DNA of 64,000 nt from NCBI GenBank assembly GCA_943788055.1, contig CALSOU010000008.1:1-64000 (forward strand). Direction: 5' to 3'. The DNA is from an uncultured Saprospiraceae bacterium. Lineage in GTDB: Bacteria; Bacteroidota; Bacteroidia; Chitinophagales; Saprospiraceae. How positions within the stretch are numbered: position 1 is the first letter of the stretch; every line of letters starts with the position of its first letter. Below the pieces are notes generated by a model. The model saw only the letters and a list, made by a program, of their open reading frames with translations. It ran no database searches and was not told where the DNA came from. The translations under genes were made by a program, and so were the position numbers. This document shows positions 991 to 61,189 of this stretch, piece by piece.

Positions 991-1787
991 TCACACAGAA
1001 ACTTTTGCCTTGATGTGAGGATGTGGGTTATAATCAATTAATGTAAAATCGTCATATGTAAAATCCAGTATATTTTGTATTTCTGGATTGATATTCATTG
1101 TCGGGAGCGGTCTTAGATCTCTACTGAGCTGTAATTTCGTTTGCTCAAGATGATCTTTATAAATATGTGCATCACCGAATGTATGGACAAACTCTCCCAC
1201 TTCTAAGTTACACACTTGTGCGATCATCATAGTAAAAAGAGCATAGGAGGCAATATTAAATGGAACTCCTAAAAAACAATCTGCCGATCTCTGAAAAAGT
1301 TGACACGAAAGTTTACCATCCGCGACGTAAAACTGAAACATACAATGACAAGGTGTTAAAGCCATCTTATCAAGTTCACCTACATTCCAAGCATTAATGA
1401 TCATGCGTCCTCGAATCAGGATTCTCTTTTAGTGTATTAATGACCTTCATCAACTGATCTACAGTTTTTACCGTCAGCTCCTTGCCAACTTCGCCACTGC
1501 TTGCCGTATACCGGACCAAGATCACCATTTTCATCTGCCCACTCGTTCCATATTCTGACACCGTTTTCTTGTAGATATTTGACATTAGTATCGCCCTTTA
1601 TAAACCATAAGAGCTCATAAATGATCGATTTTAAGTGAAGTTTCTTAGTTGTGACCATCGGAAAACCTTTAGAAAGGTCAAAACGCATTTGATATCCAAA
1701 GGTGCTAATTGTGCCTGTGCCAGTACGATCTGATTTCTCGACACCATTATCGAGTACGTGCTGCAGTAGGGATAGATATTGACGCAT
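991..1787 (-). pseudogene. thyA: Thymidylate synthase split over three frames by two single-base frameshifts
   Basis: ORFs 1437-1847 ([51 protein letters not shown]), 1394-1585 ([19 protein letters not shown]) and 991-1404 ([27 protein letters not shown]) are consecutive ThyA segments in different frames. Confidence 0.85.
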
Positions 1788-2582
1788 AAGTGGTAGAAGC
1801 GTGAGTTCGGTTAGCTGCAAAATTAATAACATTTCTAGCCAAAGCAAATGGATAATAAAATAAAATATGATATTTTTTAATGTGTTTATGAAGTCTCTTA
1901 GAACATCTTTGTAATTAGAGATTTACATGTTAAGCTAATTGAATATATGAAATTGCATCTTCTCTTCGTCGGATGCAAATCCAAATAAAAAGTACTCTAA
2001 TAAACTAAATGGAGAGAGGTTGCACTACTTGTCATGAAATGATAAGCTTAGAATTGATTCGCCTTTCGGGCTCAAAGCCCTTAATAATCAATAGTAGGAA
2101 AAGCTACAATTCATTGAATTCCATTAATAAGCGCTTTCTCAAAAGTTAAATTAATTTCAAATCAAATTATCAAAAGTTAAGTTGGATCGAGCGTAAGTCT
2201 GATTCTTTACGAAAAAACAAGGACATAGAATATAAGGAGATAGAAATTGGTACAAAGTTAAAAACGCACTATTAGGATTCACATGGGTAAGTTACTCGGA
2301 AATAGAGCATATTTCTATCTGATATCTTTTCCTGAATATTCGAATTATAAAAAAGTAGTACTGCACATTTAACCAAATTAGATGTCACACATCTCTTTAA
2401 ATGCAAAAGTCTCATAAAGAAAGAGGATTGATTACTCGATATTCTGGACAAATTACTAAATCAGTTTTTTGAATGTCAAAAATTAATAATACCTTTCCGA
2501 GCTGTAAGTAAAAAGTGTTTCACCTTATAGGCGAAATAAAGTACTTGCGAACTTAGACGAAAACAAATCAAACAAACGACAT

Positions 2583-27283: not shown

Positions 27284-28318
27284 TTAACCAATAAAATCGA
27301 CGTCTGCAGAATAAGGATAACTCATCAGATATCGTATAGCCTGGTCGACTGGAAAATCTTCATAAATAATCTTATAAAGCATATTGGTAATTGGTGCATC
27401 AATCTTATAGAAGTTGCCCAACAGATATGCAATTTTTAGCGTACGTACACCTTCCGCAACCTCATTTGGATCTAGTAAAATCTCTTCCATCTTTAGCCCA
27501 CTAGCTATGGCACGACCAAAGGTAAAATTTCGACTGCTTTCACTAGTTGCGGTAGCAATTAGATCGCCTATTCCTGCAGTACCTAAGAATGCACGTTCAT
27601 GGATTCCGACTGCCTTTCCAAAATACACCATTTCCCTCAAGCCCCTCGTTATCAGTAGCGCTTCTATATTTTTGCCAAGCTTCTTCTCACGGAGCATGCC
27701 GCTAGCAAGTGCAATAATATTCTTATACGCTCCAGCAAATTCAGCACCCCTAATCTCATTGGAACCGAAAACAAAAAATGAGCTGTTACTTAGAAGTTGA
27801 TGACCAATCTTGATGACTTCTTCAAATTCGCTTGCAATTACAGTTGCCGCAGGTAGGCCGGCCATAATTTCGTTTGATAGATTTGGACCGCTCATACAAC
27901 CTACCCTCAACACACTAGTTTCATCTTGGATGACTTCACTCATACTGAAAATCTGATCCTTGGATAAAAAGGCAATAGGCTCGTCGGCTTTTAACTTGAC
28001 ATCTAGCCCCTTTGTACCATGAATGATTATATGACGCGGTGATACATAAGGACTAAGCTCTTGCATCATCATCCTAAAATTAGCTGATGGAACTACTGGG
28101 AATAAAACATCGCACTCCTCAGCCACAAGGCTCAATGCCTTGGTTGCCTTGATGTTTTCTCTCAATTCATAACCTCTATTTGTGTGTTTTTCGTTGATGT
28201 TGATCACCTGATGTTCATGCTTAGCATAAATCAACACATCCGAATTGAAAGACAACAAATTGGCAACAGTTGTACCAAAACTTCCAGCACCGATAACACC
28301 AACTTTTTTCTTTCTCAT
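27284..28318 (-). CDS. gpsA: NAD(P)H-dependent glycerol-3-phosphate dehydrogenase
   Basis: MRKKKVGVIGAGSFGTTVANLL, GTKGLD, GAEFAGAYKNIIALASGM, GTAGIGDLIATATSESSRNFTFG. ORF track extends to 28357. Confidence 0.94.
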   Translation of the reverse strand: MRKKKVGVIGAGSFGTTVANLLSFNSDVLIYAKHEHQVININEKHTNRGYELRENIKATKALSLVAEECDVLFPVVPSANFRMMMQELSPYVSPRHIIIHGTKGLDVKLKADEPIAFLSKDQIFSMSEVIQDETSVLRVGCMSGPNLSNEIMAGLPAATVIASEFEEVIKIGHQLLSNSSFFVFGSNEIRGAEFAGAYKNIIALASGMLREKKLGKNIEALLITRGLREMVYFGKAVGIHERAFLGTAGIGDLIATATSESSRNFTFGRAIASGLKMEEILLDPNEVAEGVRTLKIAYLLGNFYKIDAPITNMLYKIIYEDFPVDQAIRYLMSYPYSADVDFIG

Positions 28319-28409
28319 CTTGGTAAAATTAATCAATTCTGCGATTCGTTCAAGCATTCATATATACTACTATCGAAATAGCTTACTTTTATGTCGCGAA
28401 AGTAAATAG

Positions 28410-30417: not shown

Positions 30418-32319
30418 TTATTTCTTTGGTTTCTTCTTCGCTTCCTCCTGCTGTTGCTTTTGAGCATTTTCAATTGCAGTCATAAACTTACTTTTCTTCT
30501 TCTTTGGCTTCATCTTATTCTTCATTAGCTGCTGACGAAGTTTATCCTCGTTGAAAACCAATTTCTTGGTTCCAATGGTTTGAGCGATATTGAACAAGTT
30601 ACTAAAGAACATGTAAACCGTCAGACCAGAAGCATATTGATTAAAGAATGCTAAGAACATTAATGGCATGAAGTACTGAACATATTTCATCGCTGGATTA
30701 GCAGACATATCCATATGTTTAGTATTGTAGAAGGTATAAATCAACTGAGATGCTACCCATAAAATGGTAAACAAACTCAAGTGTGCTCCCATAAATGGTA
30801 TTTCAAATGGCAAATTGAAAAAAGCATCATATGACGAAAGGTCATCTGCCCACCAAAAAGACTCTTGTCTAAACCCAATCGACGCTGGGAAGAAACGGAA
30901 AAGGGCATACCATATCGGCATCTGGACCAGCATAGGCATACAACCCCCTAGAGGACTCACGCCATACTCCCTATATATCTTCATCGTTTCCATCTGTTGG
31001 GTCTGAGCGTCGTCCTTGTACTTCTTCTTAAGGTCTGCTAGCTCTGGCTTCAAAGCTCCCATCTTCGCCTGTGAATGCAACATCTTATAAGTCAAAGGAT
31101 AAAGGACTAACTTGATCAAAAAGATCATCAGAATAATCGCAAAACCCTTGTTTCCGACGATATTATCAAAGAAGTTAAACAGTGGTCGAATCACCCATCT
31201 GTTAATAGTACCAAACAATGACCGACCAAAAGGAATGATCTCCTCTAGACCGTTTCCGTAAGTTCTTAAACGCTCAAACTCATTTGGACCTGCAAAAATC
31301 TGCATTGGGAATACACCTCCAGCAATCACATCGGGTGAAATATGAAGCTCTGATGTTACTAATTTCAAGTCATCATTGTCTTCATCTAGAACTTCTGTTA
31401 CAAACTTACCATAGCTGAATCCTTGGCCTTTAGCCATGATTGTCGTATTGAAAAACTGATTTACGTGGGCAACCCATTCCACTGGCTTATCTTCTGCTTC
31501 CTCAGTAGCCGACTTTCGACAGTTACAATAGTCCGAATCCTCACCAGACTCTTTGAAATATACTGTCGAGTAGAATCTTTCGAAATAATCATTGAGCTCT
31601 AGTTTATCTAGATAATTCTTCCAACGAACTGTTATCTTTTCGCCATTTGTGAATGTTGCAGCAGCATTTCCGAAGTTCAAATTATAATCGATATCATAAT
31701 CCTCCTTCAAAGTGTAAGTCTGAACGAATTCGCCATTTGCACCAGCAGTAAAAACGATCGTATTTCCGTTCTGAGTGGCGCTAAAATTCAAATCTTCTGA
31801 ATCGACAGTACCTCCAGGAACCCCTTTGACGGGTAATATATAGGAGAATCTGTTCTTTTGATCGGCAAGAAGCTCAACTGGAGTTTTCACCTTCTCTCCT
31901 TCTTCATTTTTGTACACTTTCATGTAGTCTTTCACGGTAACACCGACAATCTTTCCTCCTTTGGAACTAAAATCAACTTTGATTTGATCGTTTTCTAGAG
32001 TGTATGTTTTGGCTGTACCGTTTGCATTTGGAGCAAAAGCTCCATACTGCATCTGCAACTTGAGATCTTGTTGAGCTAATACAATCGAATCATTTACGCT
32101 TGCAGAAGTTCGCTCTACAACAGTTTGAGAAGACGCAATTGGTTGAACTGGAAGCGCAGCGATAGAATCAGCTACTTGCTTGTCCATAATAGCCTGCGCT
32201 ATGGAATCTTGTTTGATTTGTTGTAATAAAGCTGCTCTCTTTGCTTTCGTGTTGTTTGTAGACCAAAGAAAGAAAAGTGCAAAAATCAGAACAAGTCCTA
32301 TTATTTGACGTTTGTCCAT
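30418..32319 (-). CDS. yidC: Membrane protein insertase YidC
   Basis: MDKRQIIGLVLIFALFFLWS; periplasmic domain; GCMPMLVQMPIWYALFRFFPASIGFRQESFWWADDLSSYD; Lys-rich tail. Confidence 0.97.
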   Translation of the reverse strand: MDKRQIIGLVLIFALFFLWSTNNTKAKRAALLQQIKQDSIAQAIMDKQVADSIAALPVQPIASSQTVVERTSASVNDSIVLAQQDLKLQMQYGAFAPNANGTAKTYTLENDQIKVDFSSKGGKIVGVTVKDYMKVYKNEEGEKVKTPVELLADQKNRFSYILPVKGVPGGTVDSEDLNFSATQNGNTIVFTAGANGEFVQTYTLKEDYDIDYNLNFGNAAATFTNGEKITVRWKNYLDKLELNDYFERFYSTVYFKESGEDSDYCNCRKSATEEAEDKPVEWVAHVNQFFNTTIMAKGQGFSYGKFVTEVLDEDNDDLKLVTSELHISPDVIAGGVFPMQIFAGPNEFERLRTYGNGLEEIIPFGRSLFGTINRWVIRPLFNFFDNIVGNKGFAIILMIFLIKLVLYPLTYKMLHSQAKMGALKPELADLKKKYKDDAQTQQMETMKIYREYGVSPLGGCMPMLVQMPIWYALFRFFPASIGFRQESFWWADDLSSYDAFFNLPFEIPFMGAHLSLFTILWVASQLIYTFYNTKHMDMSANPAMKYVQYFMPLMFLAFFNQYASGLTVYMFFSNLFNIAQTIGTKKLVFNEDKLRQQLMKNKMKPKKKKSKFMTAIENAQKQQQEEAKKKPKK

Positions 32320-34118: not shown

Positions 34119-34865
34119 ATGAGCTCATTCCCCACTCCTATTTCATATACATTTGATGTTTTATATCAGGATGAACATTTAGTAGCTATCAACAAGCCTT
34201 ATGGTTTCTTGACCCATCGTACAGCACTAGCAAAATATGAAACACAAATAGTTCTTCAAGCATTACGAGATCAATTAGGTCGTTCTGTACATCCGATTCA
34301 TCGACTTGATCGCAAGACATCTGGCGTTTTGCTTTGGGGTTTAGATTCCAAGGCTCACAGCGATATGAGCAAGCTATTTCAGGAAAACCTTATCAAGAAA
34401 AGCTACCTAGCAATTGTAAGAGGATATACCAAAGACGAAGGCACAATTGATTATCCATTGAAAAATGAAGCTGGCAGGTCACAAGAGGCAGTTACAAATT
34501 ACAAAACCTTAGAACGAAAAGAGCAGAAGTGGCCTTTAGGCAAACACGAAACAAGTCGCTATTCGCTTCTTGAACTCAACCCGACTACTGGAAGAATGCA
34601 TCAACTACGCAGACATCTTTCACATAATTTTCACCCAATTATTGGGGATCGACCGCATGGCTGTAGTAAGCAAAATAGAATGTTTAAACAGAAATTCGGC
34701 TTTGAAGAAATGCTTCTTCATGCAAGTTCTCTAAGTTTTACACATCCCTACACTGATATCGAAATTAAAATCCAAGCACCACTTTTCGAATCGTATTTGA
34801 AAATGGCAAGTAAAATCGGGTTTATGAATGTTGAAGAATCGAACTCCATTTCCAAGGAAAAGTAA
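34119..34865 (+). CDS. RluA-family RNA pseudouridine synthase (TruC-like)
   Basis: LVAINKPYGFLTHRT; HRLDRKTSGVLLWG; TGRMHQLRRHLSHNFHPIIGDRPHG. Confidence 0.92.
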   Translation: MSSFPTPISYTFDVLYQDEHLVAINKPYGFLTHRTALAKYETQIVLQALRDQLGRSVHPIHRLDRKTSGVLLWGLDSKAHSDMSKLFQENLIKKSYLAIVRGYTKDEGTIDYPLKNEAGRSQEAVTNYKTLERKEQKWPLGKHETSRYSLLELNPTTGRMHQLRRHLSHNFHPIIGDRPHGCSKQNRMFKQKFGFEEMLLHASSLSFTHPYTDIEIKIQAPLFESYLKMASKIGFMNVEESNSISKEK

Positions 34866-36896: not shown

Positions 36897-37451
36897 ATGG
36901 CAGTAATAGATTTGAAGGTTTTACTTGATGTACCAACTATTCTAGACAAACGCTCTTCTGATGCTCTAATTAAGGCAATCAAAGAAAACTATGTAGAGGA
37001 TTTCGATTATCTGAAATTCCTTTCGTCTGTAAAGACTCTTCAAGGGATGGGCATAGATGAAGAGACCGCTTTCAAATCAGCTTTTGCAACTGCCAAAACT
37101 ATGGGCTTCTCCAAAGCTGCTTTTAAACAAAGTGTGCAGCATTACAAGCAAATATTGACATCTCAGATGGGAAATTTTGCCGAAGCATTTCAGAGGCAAA
37201 AAGAAGATAAACTGGAAAACCGGGTTGAGAAAAATAACGAAATTGAAAAACGGATTGAGAGCAACAAAGAAAAAATCCAAAAGTTACAAGCAGAAATTGA
37301 AATCCTAGAAAAGAAAATTGCCACGGCTAATGAAACCTTGGAAAAGGAAAGAACGAAACTCGAAACTATACATACGAACTTCGTATCTTCGTATCAGTTC
37401 TTTGATGAAAAGCTAAAACAAGATCTAAACCTATTCGAAAAATATATATAA
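36897..37451 (+). CDS. Conserved-looking hypothetical with C-terminal coiled coil; partner of the next gene
   Basis: 184 aa; heptad-rich region RVEKNNEIEKRIESNKEKIQKLQAEIEILEKKIATANETLEKER; 10 nt gap to the next gene. Confidence 0.7.
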   Translation: MAVIDLKVLLDVPTILDKRSSDALIKAIKENYVEDFDYLKFLSSVKTLQGMGIDEETAFKSAFATAKTMGFSKAAFKQSVQHYKQILTSQMGNFAEAFQRQKEDKLENRVEKNNEIEKRIESNKEKIQKLQAEIEILEKKIATANETLEKERTKLETIHTNFVSSYQFFDEKLKQDLNLFEKYI

Positions 37452-37461
37452 CTAATTATCG

Positions 37462-38493
37462 ATGGATGTATCTAATCCCCTAGACAATAATAACTTCAAG
37501 CCAAAAACCTTTTGGCAAAAACCAGAAGGAAAAACAGGCGCATTGTTCCTCGTTGGTGTAGCGGCGGTAGCAGGCTACTTCCTTTTTACGGCAGGTACTG
37601 CCATATTGACTTTTCTCACGACAACAATCGGAATTGTAATATCCTTAGCAGTTCTAGGTGCGATTATCTATATGGCTCTCGATCCAAAAGTACGAGCGGT
37701 AGTTGGCTACATGTATAAAAGTATAATGCGTAAGATCACTGGAATTTTTGTGACTATTAATCCTATTGGAATACTTAAGAACTACATTAGTGACTTAGAA
37801 GACAATCTTCAAAAAATGAGTAAACAGATTGGAAGTCTACGTGGTCAAATGCGTAAGATTAAGGACCTAATCAGCAGCAATACAGATGATATTAAGCAAA
37901 ATTTGTTGATTGCTAAAAAAGCTAAAGAACAAGACAATAGTTCAGCTTTAACGCTTGCGACTAGAAAAGCTGCTCGTTTGAAAGAGAGTAATAGCAAGTA
38001 TACTGTGCTTCACAAACGAATGACAATTCTTCACAAAGTGTTGACAAAGATGTACGCGAATTCTGAGATTCTTCTCGAAGATACTAAAGACCAAGTCAAA
38101 GTAAAAGAAGTAGAATACAGAGCAATTAAGACCTCGCATTCAGCTATGAAATCTGCAATGAGTATTATTAGTGGAGATAAGGACAAAAGAGCAATGTTTG
38201 ATCAAGCAATGGAACATATTGCTGATGATGTAGCTAACAAGGTAGGTGAAATGGAGCAATTCATGGAAATGTCTTCTTCTTTTATGGATTCTATCGACTT
38301 GCAGAGTGGTGTTTTTGAAGAGCAAGGACTTAAGATGTTGGAGGAATATGAAAAACGATCAAGTTTACTACTTATGGGCGGCAGCGAACAACATGACGAA
38401 GTGTTGGATTTAGATGAGATGCCTCAAATTGACTATGACGAGAATACGTTAGATGATTCTAGTGATTCAGACTATAAGAATTTGTTTGAGTAA
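37462..38493 (+). CDS. Membrane-anchored PspA/IM30-like coiled-coil protein (putative)
   Basis: Two N-terminal TM segments (FLVGVAAVAGYFLFTAGTAILTFLTTTIGIVISLAVLGAIIYMAL) followed by an all-helical region resembling PspA architecture (PIGILKNYISDLEDNLQKMSKQIGSLRGQMRKIKDLI ... FDQAMEHIADDVANKVGEMEQFMEM). Confidence 0.6.
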   Translation: MDVSNPLDNNNFKPKTFWQKPEGKTGALFLVGVAAVAGYFLFTAGTAILTFLTTTIGIVISLAVLGAIIYMALDPKVRAVVGYMYKSIMRKITGIFVTINPIGILKNYISDLEDNLQKMSKQIGSLRGQMRKIKDLISSNTDDIKQNLLIAKKAKEQDNSSALTLATRKAARLKESNSKYTVLHKRMTILHKVLTKMYANSEILLEDTKDQVKVKEVEYRAIKTSHSAMKSAMSIISGDKDKRAMFDQAMEHIADDVANKVGEMEQFMEMSSSFMDSIDLQSGVFEEQGLKMLEEYEKRSSLLLMGGSEQHDEVLDLDEMPQIDYDENTLDDSSDSDYKNLFE

Positions 38494-38516: not shown

Positions 38517-38546
38517 AAAGGAGATGTAAAATACATCTCCTTTTTT
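38517..38546 (+). terminator. Intrinsic terminator
   Basis: AAAGGAGATGTA-AAA-TACATCTCCTTTTTT. Confidence 0.85.
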
Positions 38547-58643: not shown

Positions 58644-59885
58644 CTAATTTCTAAATAAAGAATTACCGACCCAGCTGTAGACAACCCCACAAATGATCCC
58701 CGCATAACTAAACATAGTACCATCAATTCCAATGACTATTTTGGACACAAGTCCGACACTGAATAAGAAGCTCGCCAAAACATAGAATACCTTAGCAGTA
58801 TTCCTGACTCTCTTATCTTGAGATTCCCACATATTTGTAGACATAACCAGTCCTAGAAATCCGATTCCTAACATGTTTAGCCAAGCTAACTCTGAGATTA
58901 ATAAGGCACTACCAACACTCACAAAACCAGCAATTAAGTTCCATTGCGCAAACTTTGCAGTCTTCAACTCCCCTTCGTCTAAGGACAAGCGACCGTTCTT
59001 ACGTGTATAAAGTACAAAGGTCATAATCGGGTCTAATATCCATGTTGATAGTGTAAATGCTAATAACAAAGCAACAATAGTATACATCGCAATTAAACCC
59101 ACTCCCCCCAACAATTCCCCTACTCTGCCAGCTAAATTGATCATAACAACAATTCCTATCATCACCAGAAAATTCGTGTTACGGCCTTTCTTCGACATAT
59201 ACAGCTGAAATTGCAATAACCAACGGTACAGCGGGAACCTTGCCTTCATTGCAAGCTTCATTCCTTGTTGTGCATGTGCTTGAGTGGGATCATTGATAAG
59301 CGCTTGGCGAAAATGTTCAATCGCTTTCGACGTCTGACCAATCTCAAGATTTCTAAACCCATAATTAGCGTGAGTTTCCCAGTTCTCAGGATCGGTTTTA
59401 AGAGCTTTGTCGATTACTGTTCCTGCTTCTTTTCCTCTACCCTGTCCGACAAGTGACTTGGACAAGGTGTTCAGAGCATCTGTATCTTCTGAATCTAGTT
59501 CCAAAGCCTGCCTAGCTGCAATTTCAGCTTCCGAATAATTTTGCTGATACAAGTATATTCTAGCCTTTAGATCAAAATAGTTAGACATTTGACTATTAAG
59601 TCCAATCGCTTCATTAATGTATTTGAGCGCTTCTTGAATCTTATTTCGCTTTATTTCAAGATTTGATAGAAGATAGAAATAATACGAGTTCCACGGTTGT
59701 CTCATCAAGCCATCTTTTGCAACTTGCTCTCCCTCTTCCAGCTTACCAAGTACAATACAAACAGACGCTAGAGAACGAATGGCTTGGTCATTTTGAGGCT
59801 CCTGAGAAAGCAGCTCTTTCACCTCTTTGTAAGCCATTTCAAATCTTCCCTGACTGAATAATATGTTGATTCTTTCTATCTGCAC
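58644..59885 (-). CDS. TPR-repeat protein with C-terminal transmembrane segments
   Basis: TPR units such as WNSYYFYLLSNLEIKRNKIQEALKYINEAIGLNS and AEIAARQALELDSEDTDALNTLSKSLVGQGRGKEA, followed by several hydrophobic helices. Confidence 0.88.
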   Translation of the reverse strand: MQIERINILFSQGRFEMAYKEVKELLSQEPQNDQAIRSLASVCIVLGKLEEGEQVAKDGLMRQPWNSYYFYLLSNLEIKRNKIQEALKYINEAIGLNSQMSNYFDLKARIYLYQQNYSEAEIAARQALELDSEDTDALNTLSKSLVGQGRGKEAGTVIDKALKTDPENWETHANYGFRNLEIGQTSKAIEHFRQALINDPTQAHAQQGMKLAMKARFPLYRWLLQFQLYMSKKGRNTNFLVMIGIVVMINLAGRVGELLGGVGLIAMYTIVALLLAFTLSTWILDPIMTFVLYTRKNGRLSLDEGELKTAKFAQWNLIAGFVSVGSALLISELAWLNMLGIGFLGLVMSTNMWESQDKRVRNTAKVFYVLASFLFSVGLVSKIVIGIDGTMFSYAGIICGVVYSWVGNSLFRN

Positions 59886-61189
59886 TATTTGATGTACTTT
59901 AGGATTTCATCGTACAGCCCGCTTTGATTAGCATAGAGTGCATAATTTTTGGCTGTATTAAACCATTCCCTTGTAGATGGCTGTGTTTTCTTAATTGCCT
60001 GTTGCAAATCAGTCATTTCTATAGGTTGAACCTCTCCAGTTTCTAAGGCAATCTCCAGTTTAGCTTCGATTGCACGATCAACCACCGCGTAGATATCCGC
60101 ACCCGAAAACATGTCTGTAGATTTTGCCAACTTCGTATAATTAATACCTTCACCTAAGGGCTTTTCACGTAATGCAAGCTCAAAAATAGCTGCACGCGCA
60201 TCATTATCTGGAGGAGGAACGAAAATGATTCTATCAAAACGACCAGGTCTTCTGAAGGCCGTATCTAGTGCCCAAGGTGTATTAGTTGCTCCAACAATCA
60301 GTAAACCTTCATTATCTGAAGAAATACCATCCATTTCCGATAAGAATTGGTTGATCACATTTTTTCCAGCTTGATTGATCATCTGATGGCGAGAGGCTCC
60401 AATTGCATCTACTTCATCAAAAAATAGTACGCATGGTGTATGCTCCCTAGCTACCTCGAAAACGTCTGCGAGATTTCGTTCACTTTGACCTATGTACATA
60501 TCAAGTATATCATTGATGCCTACATTGATAAATTTTGCATCAATTTCACCAGCCGTCGCACGAGCCATATAAGTTTTTCCACAGCCGGGTGGTCCATAAA
60601 GCAATATGCCACCTCCGACCTTCTTACCGTACATTTTATAAAGATCAGGGTTCAGAAGTGGTTTGATAATCTTCAGGTTAATCTCCTTTTTTACATCTGC
60701 TAACCCACCCACATCTTTAAAAGAAATATTACTCTCTTCAAGAAACAATTCCTCATCCAGATCAAGTTCTTCCAAAGCTCCAAATGCCTTAATTCGCAAA
60801 GCTTCATCTAATTCAGGGTCCAAGAATCTAGGATTATCATCTAGTATTTCCTCATACATTTCTTGTGCTAATCGTAAATTCTTTTCCTTCACCAATGCCT
60901 TCGTATACCACACTTTCAGTTTGAATGGCATTTCGTTAGTATCCTGTATATCCTCGGCGATCATGACGATTGCACTGAACTTCTTGCCCTTGTAGAAAGC
61001 CTCAGCCAGTAATTCCTTAGCAGCCATATTTGACCGATCTAGTTTTAAGATCTCTTGCAATTGCACCTCAGCCTCAGGAACAAATCCTGAATGCATAAAT
61101 TTTTCTGCCAAATAATATCTTAAGGTTGTATTATCTGGACTCTTGGCAACAGCTTCGATTAGAGTCTGTATATCCTGATTATAGTTCAT
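59885..61189 (-). CDS. AAA+ ATPase with N-terminal TPR domain
   Basis: ISFKDVGGLADVKKEI, Walker A GPPGCGKT, Walker B CVLFFDEVDAIG, FRRPGRFDRIIFVPPP; N-terminal TPR-like repeats. Confidence 0.93.
   Translation of the reverse strand: MNYNQDIQTLIEAVAKSPDNTTLRYYLAEKFMHSGFVPEAEVQLQEILKLDRSNMAAKELLAEAFYKGKKFSAIVMIAEDIQDTNEMPFKLKVWYTKALVKEKNLRLAQEMYEEILDDNPRFLDPELDEALRIKAFGALEELDLDEELFLEESNISFKDVGGLADVKKEINLKIIKPLLNPDLYKMYGKKVGGGILLYGPPGCGKTYMARATAGEIDAKFINVGINDILDMYIGQSERNLADVFEVAREHTPCVLFFDEVDAIGASRHQMINQAGKNVINQFLSEMDGISSDNEGLLIVGATNTPWALDTAFRRPGRFDRIIFVPPPDNDARAAIFELALREKPLGEGINYTKLAKSTDMFSGADIYAVVDRAIEAKLEIALETGEVQPIEMTDLQQAIKKTQPSTREWFNTAKNYALYANQSGLYDEILKYIK

Follow-up and report, generated by a model that had tools for sequence, protein, structure and literature searches.

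The known bacterial members of the ESCRT-III superfamily comprise, according to a 2026 review, only PspA, LiaH, YjfJ and IM30/Vipp1, and the fold is recognized by an alpha1-alpha2 helical hairpin followed by helices alpha3-alpha5 (PMC13051332). The published order of helices in PspA is alpha0, alpha1, alpha2+3, alpha4 and alpha5 (PMC12358876). In the LiaI-LiaH and YdjGHI-PspA systems of B. subtilis, a PspA-type protein is tied to the membrane by other transmembrane (TM) proteins (PMC9239133 and PMC8581546, accessible text of both). One sentence in the accessible text of Ravi et al. 2024 (PMC11237479) mentions TM-bearing Snf7 homologs whose operons also encode an ABC ATPase, a permease and a PBPB-OmpA protein; the same text names the missing AAA partner for disassembly as an open point.

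The tandem described here, ORF1 and ORF2, lies in a 64,000-nucleotide stretch of DNA (the window) from an uncultured Saprospiraceae bacterium. The host assembly totals 3.0 Mb in 13 contigs, and the window lies on contig 8. We put the probability at roughly 0.7 that ORF2 is an ESCRT-III/PspA-superfamily protein which an N-terminal TM hairpin keeps permanently anchored in the inner membrane and which acts as a membrane-maintenance polymer.

The ORF1-ORF2 tandem in the window

The original prediction had placed two genes at 36897 and 37462, 10 nt apart, with a common terminator at 38517. ORFs were found at exactly those coordinates, separated by a 10-nt gap, and a terminator scan detected a hairpin with a T tail at the predicted site (Table 1). 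The scan yielded two terminator-like sites, versus 1.0 expected in shuffled sequences, both being the same hairpin on the two strands. The two ORFs are real genes, because ORF2 is conserved in related genomes, as is its tandem arrangement with ORF1. The downstream neighbour of the locus encodes a DsbA-like thioredoxin-fold protein. Also in the window are a pseudouridine synthase gene (at 34119) and, near the locus on the opposite strand, yidC (30418-32319) and gpsA (27284-28357).

Table 1. Features of the ORF1-ORF2 locus and of the AAA gene pair in the window.
Feature	Residues	Position	Strand	Basis or description
ORF1		36897..37451	+	184 aa, ATG start; small helical N-domain and 110-residue helix; conserved partner gene
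ORF1 N-terminal helical domain	6-68	36912..37100	+	AF2 model, ORF1 family alignments
ORF1 long single helix	73-183	37113..37445	+	AF2 model
ORF2		37462..38493	+	343 aa, ATG start; TM-anchored PspA/ESCRT-III superfamily protein (probable)
Motif FWxKPEG	17-23	37510..37530	+	Directly before first TM helix; invariant alignment columns
TM hairpin	24-73	37531..37680	+	Hydropathy; helix 24-73 in AlphaFold model
Amphipathic helix alpha0	75-97	37684..37752	+	Model; helical moment; hhalign alignment to PspA alpha0
alpha1-alpha3 hairpin	101-235 (alpha1 101-156, alpha2+3 160-235)	37762..38166	+	Model, Foldseek, hhalign
alpha4 and alpha5	240-277 and 285-304	38179..38373	+	AlphaFold model
C-terminal tag YKNLFE, consensus Yxx[LF]F[DE]		38473..38490	+	After acidic, low-confidence linker
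Intrinsic terminator common to ORF1 and ORF2		38517..38543	+	12-bp hairpin and T tail (terminator scan)
TPR/multi-TM gene paired with AAA		58644-59885	-	In window
VPS4-like AAA ATPase with N-terminal TPRs		59885-61189	-	In window

The same contig carries a second copy of ORF1 and ORF2 (L021:5180-6915, corresponding to C8:162176-163911), which is of the B type defined below and lacks transporter genes. This copy is interrupted by single-base frame breaks, some of them beside short homopolymers, and is either a pseudogene or an assembly error, the two being indistinguishable from sequence. A thymidylate synthase in the window (991-1847, minus strand), named from its sequence, likewise seems split into two frames. 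The broken genes of the second copy and the split synthase together suggest indel errors in the assembly.

ORF2 and the PspA/ESCRT-III superfamily

The TM hairpin, helix alpha0, the alpha1-alpha5 core, the conserved tag and the frequent pairing with ORF1 are established by sequence and by an AlphaFold2 model of ORF2 computed from 67 sequences. Two TM helices had been predicted, and ORF2 indeed contains two hydrophobic stretches, centred at about residues 36 and 60 (Kyte-Doolittle 2.0-2.4), which the model folds into a hairpin. An N-terminal W/F..(K/R)PE pattern is present in 117 of 120 ORF2 homologs, and the conserved motif in front of the hairpin reads FWx(K/R)PEG. Positively charged residues flank the hairpin on both sides, suggesting, by the positive-inside rule, that both of its ends are cytosolic. 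The amphipathic-looking stretch anticipated after the TM helices is alpha0, with a helical moment of up to 0.50 (in KSIMRKITGIFVTINPIG). Helix alpha1 opens with an invariant proline (P101), aligned by hhalign to the invariant P25 of PspA. From about residue 311 the model has a pLDDT of only 38-44, over an acidic and divergent linker, beyond which Yxx(L/F)F(D/E) or a close variant ends 118 of 120 distinct homologs and is kept even in relatives with only 22-34% identity. This conserved tag is a new feature of the ORF2 family. Conserved tails beyond disordered linkers are usually docking peptides.

The model (mean pLDDT 72, pTM 0.50) is most reliable over residues ~120-180, where pLDDT exceeds 90, and both tails are low. 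Its helices (Table 1) correspond to alpha1-alpha5 of PspA, as the original prediction had proposed from their order, and the full series from alpha0 to alpha5 is reproduced, with the TM hairpin in front. Comparison of the model with PspA, Vipp1 and CHMP, which had been proposed as a check, revealed the helical-hairpin fold of the ESCRT-III proteins. In a Foldseek search of the PDB, the best 12 matches were all Vipp1 (E 9e-4 to 5e-2, probability 1.00), followed by CHMP2A/3, CHMP1B/IST1, Shrub and residues 1-144 of E. coli PspA. Full-length superpositions mostly bend differently, with rmsd often above 30 Å; the alpha1-alpha3 hairpin alone superposes well (rmsd 3.0-4.6 Å; TM-score by target 0.73-0.79). 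An unrelated structure, 8snb_8U, also resembles the hairpin (0.86), and the fold result is read jointly with the sequence result because helical hairpins match unrelated proteins as well.

When the proteins of the window were scanned singly with HMMs, nothing scored over any cut-off. ORF2 alone reached 11.1 bits (E 0.29) against Pfam PspA_IM30 (PF04012), in a colinear alignment of residues 100-269 with positions 23-182 of the 220 in the profile. The PspA signal became visible because all homologs were scanned, rather than ORF2 alone. Most (64 of 67) of the close homologs, scanned singly, match PspA_IM30 at E<=1 (best 2.8e-6), ahead of every other family. In a broader set of 29 sequences (22-71% identity to ORF2), 14 match it at <=0.01 (best 2.5e-7), and the second family, TACC_C, is matched by five. 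Genome searches using PF04012 alone recover genes of the TM-anchored family (the TM form) at E 1e-7 to 1e-3.

Alignment of the TM-family profile with 18 Bacteroidota PspA sequences by hhalign gave a probability of 81% (E 1.2e-5) and begins at alpha0, versus at most 6.7% for the controls: ORF1, reversed alignments and 28 alignments of other gene families, among them the coiled-coil proteins of clusters c4 and c7. In the opposite direction, canonical PspA was left out of the TM-family profile, which still recovered canonical PspA genes from Bacteroidota genomes (E 1e-8 to 1e-5). Eight such genes were found, four of which (L178, L180, L183 and L185) were read individually; they begin MSLWxRFxRxIRSxFGGxIxxxEDPxLILEQNIR... 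Two of these canonical operons from other Bacteroidota (L178:1426-3417 and L183) also contain a small coiled-coil gene and the gene of a distinct TM protein; this protein has a long helical tail and no profile similarity to ORF2.

Generic coiled coils can imitate helical hairpins, and genes for TelA, a 2-TM helical protein and SBP-OmpA are neighbours in a Vibrio plasmid operon. ORF2 might have no kinship with PspA and be a helical TM-anchored protein of another origin, such as the TelA/XpaC type that occurs in comparable SBP-OmpA operons elsewhere among bacteria. We consider such convergence highly improbable, since the match to PspA is specific, colinear and reciprocal, whereas hhalign of the ORF2 family against TelA and against the Vibrio 2-TM protein gave only 0.2-0.5%. 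Kinship with TelA (PF05816) was itself rejected at 0.2%. The clear match to an unrelated coiled-coil family that would have spoken against the original prediction did not occur, TelA and other coiled-coil families remaining unmatched.

None of the TM-form members seen passes the Pfam PspA gathering score of 33.9 bits, the best reaching 33.1 (in G112), and ORF2 is therefore classified as a superfamily member and not as a canonical PspA/Vipp1. The proposed assignment to PspA/IM30 within the ESCRT-III superfamily thus holds at the level of the superfamily, by fold and by reciprocal profiles, but not for canonical PspA/Vipp1. A PDB sequence search with the window proteins returned no relevant match, and a plasmid search with ORF2 returned no match.

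Distribution, gene context and candidate partner proteins

The TM form is present in 25 of 41 related genomes, the best copy per genome being 52-82% identical to ORF2. PspA scoring over the Pfam cut-off occurs in only one of the 41 (G024), which lacks the TM form, and the host genome has no PspA over that cut-off. This 25-to-1 pattern derives from related genomes and does not amount to independent evidence. Canonical PspA and the TM form coexist in G206, a genome of another family; replacement is therefore not strict, but a tendency within related genomes. In most sampled Saprospiraceae, the TM form seems to take the place of ordinary PspA. Among 297 genomes of the phylum, the TM-family profile found matches in 21, of which about half are short matches to other genes, several of these being ordinary PspA. 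Conservation of the pair across Bacteroidota, which was to be checked, was thus not borne out, the pair being limited to Saprospiraceae and scattered relatives.

The copies of ORF2 fall into two types, A and B. In 33 of the 62 A-type loci with enough sequence, yidC and gpsA both lie upstream on the same strand, sometimes with a further coiled-coil gene in between. The arrangement of yidC and gpsA in the window is a rearranged version of this usual A-type context. SBP-OmpA and transporter genes were found in none of the 62. B-type loci link the TM-bearing ESCRT-III-type gene to an SBP-OmpA gene (NMT1 and OmpA domains) in 9 of 14 cases, and to a permease and an ABC ATPase in 7 of 14. The ORF1-ORF2-SBP triad also occurs in a different family of the same class (G402, L161). 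Duplication of ORF2 into A and B copies is argued chiefly from genome counts and context and less from the ORF2 tree, which is midpoint-rooted and only partly resolved. The two-gene locus originally predicted is a conserved tandem, although it is not limited to one locus, having a paralog in ABC-transporter operons.

Two side observations concern SBP-OmpA contexts. In two distant relatives (L175:339-1403 and L177:2-1441), the gene after ORF2 encodes a TM-anchored protein in place of SBP-OmpA, with no Pfam match. On plasmid pSEA2 of Vibrio alfacsensis (L205:5369-14731), an operon that parallels the B loci encodes two SBP-OmpA-like proteins, a VWA protein, a 2-TM helical protein and TelA.

The B-type context raises the alternative that the ancestral job of the pair was to organise a NitT/TauT-like ABC transporter with a peptidoglycan-binding (OmpA) SBP, the A copy being a duplicate that kept a scaffolding or solute role rather than one in membrane repair. 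The frequency of SBP-OmpA, permease and ATPase genes in B loci and the recurrence of the triad outside the family are in keeping with this proposal, and a link to solute transport is likewise proposed in the accessible text of Ravi et al. 2024 (PMC11237479). However, the SBP is missing from all 62 A loci and the transporter from several B loci as well. Moreover, A copies are the best matches among the relatives sampled, and the detached form is therefore not decaying. On balance, a transporter scaffold seems unlikely, and membrane maintenance is retained as the preferred reading.

ORF1 had been described as a coiled-coil partner of unknown family, and no convincing family or fold match was found for it. 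Its AF2 model (mean pLDDT 89.7) comprises helices at residues 6-9, 18-30, 38-50, 55-68 and 73-183, and the most conserved positions (F36, D37, Y38, A62 and G70) lie in the N-domain and at the start of the long helix. Foldseek with this model gave no fold match at E<=0.001, and Pfam matches, to assorted coiled-coil families, were set aside as composition effects. Kinship of ORF1 with PspA was not accepted: hhalign gave 4-18% for a broad ORF1 alignment against PspA or ORF2, and 29.5% for a narrow one against PspA, confined to the coiled coil. ORF1 is a family of its own without a known fold.

An upstream ORF1 was found at 119 ORF2 loci; at 32 others, each with at least 900 bp of upstream sequence, none was detected. 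Both counts include redundant loci, and the 32 absences are an upper bound because at least one of them, G009, does have ORF1 there. A clear ORF1 is present in 11 of 12 genomes tested, among them G229, in which ORF1 and ORF2 sit on different contigs; the twelfth (G011) gave a weak match only. A-type copies cluster as a single supported group in the ORF1 tree (SH-aLRT 99), and B-type ORF1 proteins carry an additional N-terminal amphipathic-looking segment and linker. G077 contains a third, very divergent TM-form gene (L056:1381-2286, 22% identity) directly 3' of an ORF1, and another TM-form copy without an adjacent ORF1.

A further candidate partner is the VPS4-like AAA ATPase of the window (Table 1), which might disassemble the ORF2 polymer in the way Vps4 acts on ESCRT-III, perhaps via the C-terminal tag. 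It shares the window with ORF2, and with its TPR/multi-TM neighbour resembles the VPS4-like AAA beside a TPR and 6TM gene in the accessible text of Ravi et al. 2024 (PMC11237479). The AAA is present in 7 of the 297 phylum genomes at E<=1e-60, and four of the seven also carry the TM form. It lies, however, 21 kb from ORF2, occurs in genomes without the TM form as well, and is absent from the TM-form genomes G077, G202 and G009 at the same E<=1e-60, a cut-off by which diverged homologs could be missed. Neither an MIT nor a Vps4_C domain was found in the AAA, and the tag of ORF2 is presumably dissimilar to the MIM motif. Action of this AAA on ORF2 is thus improbable, and an obligate partnership was rejected on the patchy co-occurrence at this strict threshold.

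Proposed role and comparison with known systems

We infer a membrane-stress or remodelling role for the pair. In the preferred reading, a membrane-anchored maintenance polymer, the helical core of ORF2 would lie on the cytosolic face, with alpha0 in the inner leaflet beside TM2, and would polymerise on the membrane like PspA and Vipp1, thereby sealing, stabilising or reshaping it. Superfamily members polymerise and remodel membranes, their alpha5 lying across the hairpin of a neighbouring subunit. The built-in anchor would make recruitment unnecessary, a step for which soluble PspA/LiaH depends on PspB/C, LiaI or flotillin-like proteins. ORF1 would most likely be a cytosolic regulator or co-assembly factor that binds the ORF2 polymer, and the C-terminal tag a peptide to which ORF1 or some other partner docks. 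The A copy, often near yidC-gpsA, would be the general membrane-maintenance form in most Saprospiraceae, probably taking over the job of the missing canonical PspA, and the B copy would be tied to the ABC transporter. A bolder version, for which we would give somewhat less than even odds, is that an integral-membrane ESCRT-III protein with a helical partner and a docking tag replaced soluble PspA across the Saprospiraceae, its assembly being switched by ORF1. Under such a replacement, ORF2 would be permanently in the membrane, and the assembly switch would therefore be ORF1 and not membrane recruitment.

The TM family is likely the same as the Snf7 homologs of Ravi et al. (PMC11237479), the B paralogs fitting in part, in a comparison by description alone. 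As far as the accessible text goes, both have a TM segment and ESCRT-III-type helices, and the B paralogs share the transporter and OmpA-domain neighbours; in contrast, the operon of Ravi et al. includes PspA and an AAA ATPase, which are absent from the loci of the pair. That accessible text (PMC11237479) contains no description of the tag, of a detached A copy close to yidC-gpsA or of the absence of canonical PspA, and the accessible text of a phyletic study of Psp systems (PMC9239133) contains none of such a TM-anchored form. The pSEA2-type TelA/SBP-OmpA operons resemble the B loci in having SBP-OmpA and ABC genes as neighbours and in encoding a 2-TM helical protein, but neither TelA nor the 2-TM protein has profile similarity to ORF2. 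PspB, PspC, PspF, Lia and band-7 proteins of the classical Psp systems are not among the recurrent neighbours of ORF2 (ORF1, gpsA, yidC and ABC genes) in the part of the neighbours scanned.

ORF2 resembles PspA, Vipp1 (IM30) and LiaH in its amphipathic alpha0, its alpha1-alpha2 hairpin, helices alpha3-alpha5, the proline at the start of alpha1 and the reciprocal profile matches. Unlike the canonical proteins, which are soluble and begin at alpha0, it has about 74 residues, including the TM hairpin, before alpha0, as well as an acidic tail with a fixed tag, and it scores under the Pfam cut-off. In LiaI-LiaH and YdjGHI-PspA the anchor is a separate protein, whereas in ORF2 it is fused to the ESCRT-III-type protein itself. 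ORF1 is a candidate regulator in bacteria without a known disassembling AAA partner. With a built-in anchor, the route to the membrane and the trigger of polymerisation, which are entangled in PspA, become separate questions: PspA and Vipp1 gain access to the membrane via alpha0 and LiaH via a partner protein, whereas ORF2 would do so via its own TM anchor.
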